The notes under the pieces are model-generated. The model saw only the letters and a program-made list of their open reading frames with translations. It was not told the DNA's origin and did no database searches. DNA of 64,000 bases from Microbacterium sp. NIBRBAC000506063. Lineage in GTDB: Bacteria; Actinomycetota; Actinomycetes; Actinomycetales; Microbacteriaceae. Of the stretch, positions 58,275-60,601 are shown one piece after another. Every line of letters begins with the position of its first letter. Position 1 is the first letter of the stretch. The position numbers and the translations under genes were made by a program. The stretch spans positions 310,001-374,000 of the forward strand of contig NZ_CP072877.1 in the NCBI RefSeq assembly GCF_017968845.1, given 5' to 3'.

Positions 58275-58356
58275 ATGCTGTCAATCCATGGGTTTCGCGC
58301 GTCGGCTCCCCTCCGGCTGACTAGCGTTGAGGGTTGTCGACCATCCAGGAGGTTTC

Positions 58357-59448
58357 ATGTCCGCCCCCGCCATCCCCACCGACGCCGATCGCCGGCGGTG
58401 GGCGCGCTATCTCGTCGAGGAGCGTGCCGAGGCGCGTGTCTACGAGCGACTCGCCGCGCGCCGGACGGGCGAGGATCGTGAGATCCTGCTGCAGCTCGCT
58501 GCGGCCGAGCGTCGCCATGAGGCGCACTGGCTGGGCCTGTTGGGTGGCGTGCCCGAGAAGCTGCCGCGTGCCGGCATCCGATCCCGCATGCTCGGCTGGA
58601 TGGCGGGCCGGTTCGGGATGATCTTCGTCCTGGCGCTCGCACAGAGCGCCGAAGCCCGGTCTCCCTACGACACCGAGCAGTATGCGACCGCCGCGATGCG
58701 CGCCGACGAGAAGGTGCACTACGAGGTGGTGCGCGGTCTGGCGGCACGGGGCAGGCGGAAGCTGTCGGGGTCGTTCCGCGCCGCGGTCTTCGGCATGAAC
58801 GACGGCCTCGTGAGCAATCTCGCCCTCGTCCTGGCGATCGGGGCGACCGGGGTGGCGCCGCAGTTCGTGCTGTTCAGCGGCATCGCCGGGCTTCTGGCCG
58901 GCGCCCTCTCCATGGGTGCGGGGAGTTCGTCTCGGTGCGTTCGCAGCGCGAACTCCTCGCGGCGACCGAGGTCAATGACAGTGCTGCGGATGCCGCGGGC
59001 GACCTCGACATCGATGAGAACGAGCTCGCCCTCGTCTACCGAGCCCGGGGAATGGACGCGGAGGAGTCGCTCACCCGTGCGCGAAGGGTCGTCGCGGCAG
59101 CGAAGGCCGGAGCGGCGCGGACGGCGACAGGGCCAGTGCGCGCGTTCGGCGGATCGAGCGACCGCGATGTCGTCGGAAGCGACTGGATCGCCGCGCTGAC
59201 GAGCTTCCTGCTCTTCACCTCCGGGGCGATCATCCCGGTGCTGCCCTGGATCTTCGGCCTGAGCGGGCTCACCGCGATCGCCGTGGCGCTGGCACTCGTC
59301 GGCATCGCGCTGCTGTCCACAGGGCACTCGTCGGCATCCTCTCCGGGGTCCGCCGCTGCGCCGCGCTCTGCGCCAGCTGGCGATCGGCTTCGGCGCGGCC
59401 GCGATCACCTATACCCTGGGGCTGATCTTCGACGTGGGAGCGCTCTGA
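58357..59448 (+). CDS. MbfA-like protein: ferritin-like domain plus VIT1/CCC1 transporter (frameshifted)
   Basis: A membrane iron or manganese handling protein of 364 residues. The N-terminal 130 residues are a rubrerythrin/ferritin-like helical domain with metal-ligand Glu and Glu-x-x-His patterns (LVEERAEARVYERLA, AAAERRHEAHWL, RADEKVHYEVVR). The C-terminal part is a VIT1/CCC1 transporter: FGMNDGLVSNLALVLAIG, then SMGAGEFVSVRSQREL and three more helices. This fusion is known in MbfA, which exports iron. Three frame breaks (58920-58923, 59322-59324, 59350-59351) need one base each. The ATG at 58357 follows AGGAGG. Confidence 0.88.
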
Positions 59449-59512
59449 CCGCAGATCTGTTCACATCTCCGCGGGGAGGCTGATTCGAGCTCATCGTCGT
59501 TACCCTCGAGAC

Positions 59513-59635
59513 ATGTCCAGCCGTTCCCGTGTCCGTGGGCGTCCGCCGCATCCCGATGCGCTGACGCCCGCAGAGTGGCGCATCGCCCACGCGGTGCGAC
59601 ACGGCATGGCGACACGCACGATCGCCCGGCGCTAG
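59513..59635 (+). pseudogene. Truncated LuxR-type helix-turn-helix gene, cut by the insertion sequence
   Basis: Forty codons from ATG at 59513 encode a basic start and then LTPAEWRIAHAVRHGMATRT with the following IARR. This is the first half of a LuxR/GerE DNA-binding domain. The sequence stops at a TAG that lies in the insertion sequence's CTAG target. The recognition helix that should follow is missing, and no matching continuation is found after the element, where a VOC gene begins 24 bases on. Similar short LuxR-like proteins next to VOC genes are something I recall from Microbacterium. The gene is probably inactive. Confidence 0.65.
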
Positions 59636-60577
59636 GCCGTGTTGATCAAGAGGTTTCGGCTTTCGGTGGGCGAGTCTTGAGCGGTGACGCGACACGAGAT
59701 CTCTGACGCTGTGTGGGCGGTGATGGAGCCGTTGATGCCGACGGTGTCGGGCCGTTCGCGGCCGTGGACGGATCACCGGCTCGCTGTCGAGGGGATGGCG
59801 TGGAAGTACCGCACCGGCGCACCTTGGCGTGACGTGCCGGAGCGGTTCGGGAAGTGGAACTCGATCTACAAGCGGTTCAATCGGTGGGCTGAGGACGGCA
59901 CGTGGGAGAAACTGCTCGCCGAGGTGCAGAAGCAGGCTGATGCGGCGGGGAAGATCGACTGGGTCGTCTCGATCGACTCCACGATCGCGCGTGTTCATCA
60001 GCACGGCGCGACCCTCAGCCGGGACACAGGGGCTCTGTCGAATCACAAGAATTCGCGGGTCGAGCCGCCTGACCACGCGATCGGACGCTCCCGCGGCGGG
60101 CTGACAACCAAGCTGCACCTGGTTGCCGATGGGCGAGGCAGACCGCTGGGCATGATGATCACCGGCGGCAACGTGAACGACACCACGATGATGACCGCCG
60201 TCCTTGAGGACATCCGCGTCCCACGCGTGGGGAAGGGTCGGCCGCGGACTCGCCCGGACAGGGTGCTCGCCGACAAGGGCTATCCGTCGAGGGCGAACCG
60301 GGCGTGGCTGCGCGAGCGCGGGATCGCCGCGACCATCCCCGAACGTGACGACCAGATCGCGCACCGCCGCAAGAAGCCGGGCCGGCCGATCGACTTCGGT
60401 GACCAGCAGCAGGAACGATACAAGGGCCGCAACGTCGTCGAGCGTTGCTTCAACCGACTCAAGCAGTGGCGCGGGATCGCGATGCGATCAGACAAGCTCG
60501 CTCGCAACTACCGTGCCGCGATCTGCCTCGCCGCCACCCTGATCTGGATCAAGACCGACTTGATCAACACGGCCTAG
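59632..60577 (+). mobile_element. IS5-family insertion sequence
   Basis: A 938-base element (59636-60573) with perfect 15-base terminal inverted repeats, GCCGTGTTGATCAAG and CTTGATCAACACGGC. It is flanked on both sides by CTAG (59632-59635 and 60574-60577), a likely target duplication. The span given includes the flanks. It carries one transposase gene with an intact frame. It lies between a broken LuxR-type gene and a VOC gene. Confidence 0.93.
59684..60577 (+). CDS. IS5-family DDE transposase
   Basis: A 297-residue transposase that cuts and joins the element's ends. DDE residues: Asp in VVSIDSTIARVHQHG, Asp in VLADKGYPSRAN, and Glu in NVVERCFNRLKQWRGIAMR. The N-terminal domain has the WAVMEPLMP and YRTGAPWRDVPERFG segments of the IS5 group. 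The frame is complete in one piece, without a programmed shift. The last codon and the TAG stop are made from the flanking CTAG, so the element borrows its stop codon from the target site. Confidence 0.94.
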   Translation: MTRHEISDAVWAVMEPLMPTVSGRSRPWTDHRLAVEGMAWKYRTGAPWRDVPERFGKWNSIYKRFNRWAEDGTWEKLLAEVQKQADAAGKIDWVVSIDSTIARVHQHGATLSRDTGALSNHKNSRVEPPDHAIGRSRGGLTTKLHLVADGRGRPLGMMITGGNVNDTTMMTAVLEDIRVPRVGKGRPRTRPDRVLADKGYPSRANRAWLRERGIAATIPERDDQIAHRRKKPGRPIDFGDQQQERYKGRNVVERCFNRLKQWRGIAMRSDKLARNYRAAICLAATLIWIKTDLINTA

Positions 60578-60601
60578 GGCGCCGCAACGGAAGGAAGACC
60601 C

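Follow-up and report, generated by a model that had tools for sequence, protein, structure and literature searches.

The transposase gene of a 938-bp insertion sequence of the IS5 family, read in the sequence at positions 59636-60573 of the window (the whole 64-kb stretch of DNA that was analyzed), ends in the CTAG target into which the element has inserted. The element closes with GC (60572-60573); these two bases and the adjacent C (60574), which lies outside it, form the last transposase codon, GCC, and the stop codon is the TAG at 60575-60577, within the right-hand CTAG. Sequence comparison indicates that CTAG is very probably recognized by the transposase itself and that the borrowed stop is a by-product of compact element ends. 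The features on which this account draws are as follows.

59632-59635, no strand: left CTAG, a target-derived flank, the TAG of which also terminates a short host ORF upstream.
59636-59650, plus strand: left terminal inverted repeat GCCGTGTTGATCAAG, from the sequence, a perfect 15-bp match to the right repeat.
59684-60577, plus strand: IS5-family transposase of 297 amino acids with a GTG start, identified by ORF, NCBIfam and Pfam.
60025-60033, plus strand: CACAGGGGC, the one-G-shorter form of the motif CACAGGGGGC, with the two frames fused here, from comparison with relatives.
60559-60573, plus strand: right terminal inverted repeat CTTGATCAACACGGC, from the sequence, the element ending at 60573.
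60574-60577, plus strand: right CTAG, target-derived, its C finishing the last alanine codon and its TAG serving as the stop, from the sequence and the unoccupied site of a relative.

Reading of the ORF at 59684-60577 revealed no in-frame stop for the transposase within the element; the stop lies in target bases, and the 297-residue protein has the C-terminus ...INTA. Coordinates and sequence here agree with the original prediction, which had placed the element end at 60573, the completion of the last codon in the adjoining C and the stop in the TAG of the flanking CTAG. For annotators, the end of the transposase gene thus falls outside the element. The inverted repeat as first listed (59629-59650 and 60559-60580, 95% over 22 nt) extends past the element ends, CTAG being a palindrome in its own right. 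CTAG is five-fold under-represented in the whole window: shuffles predict 63 occurrences, whereas 12 are present, counting both flanks, so that the element targets a scarce site. Given this scarcity, a simple product puts the probability of two flanking CTAGs by chance at ~3.5e-8.

The window transposase matches the NCBIfam model NF033580 (IS5 family transposase) with 278.4 bits against a cut-off of 110, and also matches the Pfam models DUF4096 and DDE_Tnp_1. No IS630-type and no IS481-type transposase model was found among the Pfam and NCBIfam matches at E ≤ 0.001. With 938 bp and perfect 15-bp repeats, the element falls within the size of ~0.8-1 kb and the short inverted repeats that characterize the IS427 group, the members of which measure 832-865 bp in a table within the available portion of one report (PMC3281130). 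The IS427-group layout of two overlapping ORFs is found in L003, a sister copy, and in most of the relatives read; in the window copy the two are fused. By analogy, the window element is classed as a compact IS5-family, IS427-type insertion sequence, the IS427 name being given for its likeness in layout to ISPsp10 and to elements of Paracoccus.

The fusion of the two frames in the window copy is not the usual state among the loci read. Two overlapping frames accompany the motif CACAGGGGGC in 27 of 33 loci, the 33 including two pairs of identical copies; the four-G form is found in five loci (the window copy, L002, L005, L159 and L295), and L034 has a different sequence at the motif position. 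In L003, a second copy in the same genome, one more G in the G-run (window 60029-60032) gives rise to two overlapping frames. The motif is kept even in relatives that share only 44-69% identity (L043, L047, L054, L065), though not in L034, and sits where the frames meet; L161 is one of the loci in which it was noted at the frame junction. Written as CACAGGGG(G)C for its G4 and G5 forms, it looks like a putative +1 slippage site, and the single ORF of the window copy would be the fused form, with one G fewer. For the missing G, an assembly error is another possibility. Nearby, at window positions 58327-59483, a VIT1-family gene is likewise split, into two overlapping ORFs that match positions 1-52 and 57-186 of the profile, so that small assembly indels are possible in this genome; the frameshift in this gene beside the element is either that of a real pseudogene or an assembly indel.

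An empty site supports the view that the stop belongs to the target. The plasmid NZ_CP101182.1 carries a 939-bp relative (L292) with CTAG on both sides and a borrowed TAG, and in the Paenarthrobacter plasmid NZ_CP127117.1 the same site is unoccupied and has a single CTAG. The two plasmids are identical over 450 bases to the left, CTAG included, and 446 bases to the right. The TAG was thus already part of the target when the element arrived. This bears out the original prediction that the target supplies the stop, and contradicts the circumstance named at the time as speaking against it, namely element ends that include TAG. For the window copy itself, no empty site was found among 149 genomes, of which 14 matched, its own included, the others being partial; one VOC-gene relative, L227, has no recognizable copy of the upstream ORF. 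For another copy in this genome, L002, 25 relatives were aligned, and CTAG is missing from the corresponding position in all of them; in one, L284, a CTAG lies three bases nearer the gene. A search for empty sites of the Paenarthrobacter copies L293 and L294 returned three records, one of which, from a Cnuibacter plasmid (L301), spans the junction. It is unoccupied and 87% identical to the L293 site, and in place of the CTAG of the occupied flanks it has TTTG. This TTTG may reflect divergence (13%) or a target without CTAG, and L301 lends the rule no support.

One CTAG on each side of an occupied site and a single one at an empty site fit a 2-bp and a 4-bp target duplication alike. In the available portion of the published account, duplications in the IS427 group are of 2 bp, and of 4 in ISPha1 (PMC3281130). 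Two sibling copies, L149 and L150, are flanked by TTAG at one end and by CTAG at the opposite end, which was considered as proof of a duplication of TA only. This was rejected, since in L265 the CTAG at the site matching the right flank of L150 is intact and the left flank is unrelated, and a rearrangement explains L150 equally well.

The association of the element with CTAG was followed through its copies. The genome that contains the window, represented by 2 contigs and 76.8% complete, contains the element three times in full, besides a weak match of 40 bases. All three full copies (the window copy, L002 and L003) lie at different sites, are bordered left and right by CTAG and borrow their stop in the same way. 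A pattern search with the 15-base ends found matches in 42 of 366 Microbacterium genomes, from which 80 regions were fetched as a subset of the listed places, several contig-end fragments being left out. In these regions and the three copies of the window's own genome, CTAG adjoins 105 of 113 ends; after the other eight come CTAA (four) or CTAC, CGCT, GCTA and GGGC (one each). In this set, every copy of 938-939 bp with both ends (11 of 11) terminates at a borrowed TAG. Removal of repeats and addition of other loci left 135 distinct ends, with types assigned by the motifs of a script. CTAG follows all 24 compact right ends; for a 1307-bp sibling it follows 18 of 22 right ends. It also follows 71 of 76 left ends and 10 of 13 unclassified ends. 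All were counted on exact 15-base ends, so that decayed copies are missed (the right end of L013 is lost, and the ends of L016 and L023 are altered).

Read one by one, 12 of 29 relative loci have CTAG on both sides and a borrowed TAG (L005, L007, L009, L010, L011, L015, L027, L028, L029, L034, L035 and L050). Further relatives of this kind are L065, L145-L148, L159, L161, L162 and L170, among which L146 duplicates L010, L147 duplicates L009, L148 duplicates L015 and L170 duplicates L011. The same arrangement is found in six of eight plasmid loci (L292-L297), L293 and L294 being at one site. Many rows of the automatic end-finder, chiefly from distant Streptomyces, had plainly false ends and were excluded from the counts. 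An order-wide pattern search matched 6 of 396 genomes; it missed half of the ends in the window's own genome because, six bases outward, its pattern accepted C, G and T but not A. This search yielded one sibling copy between two CGAGs (L022, identical with G546) and three single end-pattern matches without CTAG (G534, G583 and G585).

The 1307-bp sibling provides a natural control. Its transposase is closely related, and in all 14 such copies it ends at a TGA of its own at element positions 932-934, followed by ~370 bp with an antisense ORF; 11 of the 14 have CTAG on both sides. In L152 this antisense ORF lies at 1015-1404 on the minus strand, encodes 129 amino acids and starts inside the right inverted repeat; it has no Pfam match. 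An internal stop together with CTAG on both sides is also found in L036, L043, L047 and L054, and in length L047 does not exceed the compact copies, with its stop 11 bases before the last matched bases. A quick tree of 47 transposase rows, 12 of which carry no stop label and some of which sit on long branches, places the own-stop 1307-bp clade (support 100, starred) among borrowed-stop rows at a fork with support 80, and implies at least four changes between borrowed and own stop by starred branches, and five by parsimony. Since most own-stop siblings lie at CTAG, as do most left flanks, which provide no stop, the preference for this site is probably not for the sake of the stop.

Exceptions indicate how strict the rule is. 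In L016 the right flank is CTAA and the transposase, which terminates at TAA, has its normal length; the left flank is CTAG and the right repeat is altered, and the CTAA possibly arose by later mutation. In L023 one extra base precedes the TAG, and the ORF, deprived of the borrowed stop, is 22 codons longer. A TAG or TAA at the right flank thus appears to suffice, and its absence to lengthen the protein. That compact right ends show no deviations (all 24 at CTAG, compared with 18 of 22 in the sibling; Fisher p = 0.045) at most hints at selection; a comparison with the rest of the classified ends gives p = 0.20, and selection as a proven effect was rejected with values this weak. The expectation that all copies would lie at CTAG and share the borrowed stop was realized in the compact right ends and in the 938-939-bp copies, and failed in the own-stop siblings, in L016 and in L023. 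The original prediction had further held that the choice of CTAG guarantees termination and so links target specificity to gene integrity. This finds no support: own-stop siblings insert at the same site, and L023 lacks the borrowed stop. A copy at a non-CTAG flank with a transposase of normal length, named in advance as evidence to the contrary, exists in L016, with its CTAG on the left and its altered right repeat.

A stop borrowed from the target is already known, and the window element is a clean, many-copy example of it. Agrobacterium is the host of one example, IS870. In this element, described by Fournier, Paulus and Otten in 1993, the CTAG target reportedly generates the stop codon of the large ORF, to go by the title of that work. 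IS870 and the window element would then share a stop made by CTAG, and they differ in that IS870 belongs to Tc1-mariner-IS630 and the window element to IS5. The assignment of IS870 to the Tc1-mariner-IS630 superfamily is published (PMC4678618), as far as the accessible part of that source goes. ISPsp10, of the IS427 group of the IS5 family, has a second ORF without a stop, for which the target provides one (PLoS One 2014, PMC4133298). In the accessible part of this Pseudomonas study, TA is duplicated beside TAA, and the site preference lay beyond the authors' analysis because transposition was rare (PMC4133298). By that description, ISPsp10 is like the window element in its two-frame IS427-type transposase without a stop, its target-given stop and its TA-centered site. 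Whereas ISPsp10 had landed before TAA, the site here is CTAG, many copies and own-stop siblings are available, and the frames of the window copy are fused. In ISLxc2 and ISLxx4, elements of the IS481 family in Leifsonia xyli, the transposase stop lies inside the insertion site NCTAGN, and six bases are reported as duplicated, according to the portion of the source available (PMC2516522). So described, they resemble the window element in having the stop in a CTAG-containing site, and in an actinobacterium, but differ from it in transposase family. For IS427-group elements of Paracoccus, the available text describes a conserved frameshift motif and two overlapping ORFs, with ISPha1 as a natural single-ORF mutant (PMC3281130). 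The single ORF of ISPha1, so described, parallels that of the window copy, and the two-ORF Paracoccus layout that of most relatives; the term 'stop codon' and the sequence CTAG are absent from the main text of that paper. The own-stop sibling separates landing at CTAG from the ending of the gene, two matters that the earlier reports considered here treat together.

Two readings would dispense with borrowing altogether. The stop might travel with the element, whose own end would then comprise CTAG or some of its bases; a palindromic CTAG on both sides of a single copy does not discriminate between this and borrowing, and the diverged unoccupied Cnuibacter site, with its TTTG, speaks for a carried stop. 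Nevertheless, the near-identical unoccupied plasmid site contains CTAG, on which ground CTAG was rejected as part of the element, and flanks differ in some copies at left and right ends (CTAA, CTAC, CGAG), making a carried stop highly improbable. That a decayed element should lie beside CTAG by chance found no support and has a negligible probability: the repeats are perfect, three copies at different sites have the same flanks and the window holds only 12 CTAGs in 64 kb, by which the idea is already refuted.

A further rival accepts the borrowed stop. On this account, the need for a stop drives the choice of target: a working transposase is left by CTAG insertions only, and no others survive or come to notice. 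This is the link drawn in the original prediction; the IS870 title points the same way, and the ISPsp10 authors suggested it. The contrast between compact right ends, all at CTAG, and sibling right ends, with 4 of 22 deviating, is in its favor. It is nonetheless unlikely, because own-stop siblings insert at CTAG too, left flanks that serve no stop have CTAG in 71 of 76 cases, CTAA works as well in L016, and L023 without its stop merely runs on for 22 codons. Recognition of CTAG by the transposase, with the stop as a by-product, is the preferred explanation. The transposase would recognize CTAG as its landing site, leaving one CTAG on each side of an occupied site where the empty site has one, as seen for a relative. 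Its gene, as judged from the sequence, would reach the right-hand end of the element with no stop inside, and the terminal GC followed by a CTAG site would place C-TAG in frame at every CTAG insertion. Site recognition would then be a property of the transposase, independent of any need for a stop, as suggested by the own-stop siblings, which use the same site; the borrowed stop would be a by-product that saves space where a gene takes up its whole element. Selection may perhaps remove copies that land without a following TAG or TAA. As a tentative history, possible though rather less probable than its opposite, CTAG recognition may be old and fixed and the stop repeatedly gained and lost, with compact forms kept at TAG or TAA sites by the loss of others, so that target specificity was re-used as a frame end and let the gene fill the element.

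Several smaller observations concern the surroundings and the variants of the element. To its left, a 40-codon ORF (59513-59635) has its stop in the TAG of the left CTAG; one tetranucleotide, CTAG, thus ends a host ORF on the left of the element and the transposase on its right. This ORF has no Pfam match; by eye, it resembles the beginning of a LuxR-type HTH. The host gene on this side may have lost a part by deletion. In L157, L158, L160 and L169, stretches of 1.6-5.4 kb are bordered by the same inverted repeats and CTAG and are possibly composite, interrupted or cargo-carrying forms. In L144 and L184, CTAG is offset from the element end by two extra bases and one extra base, respectively (CG-CTAG and G-CTAG), and the spacing between end and site can therefore vary.
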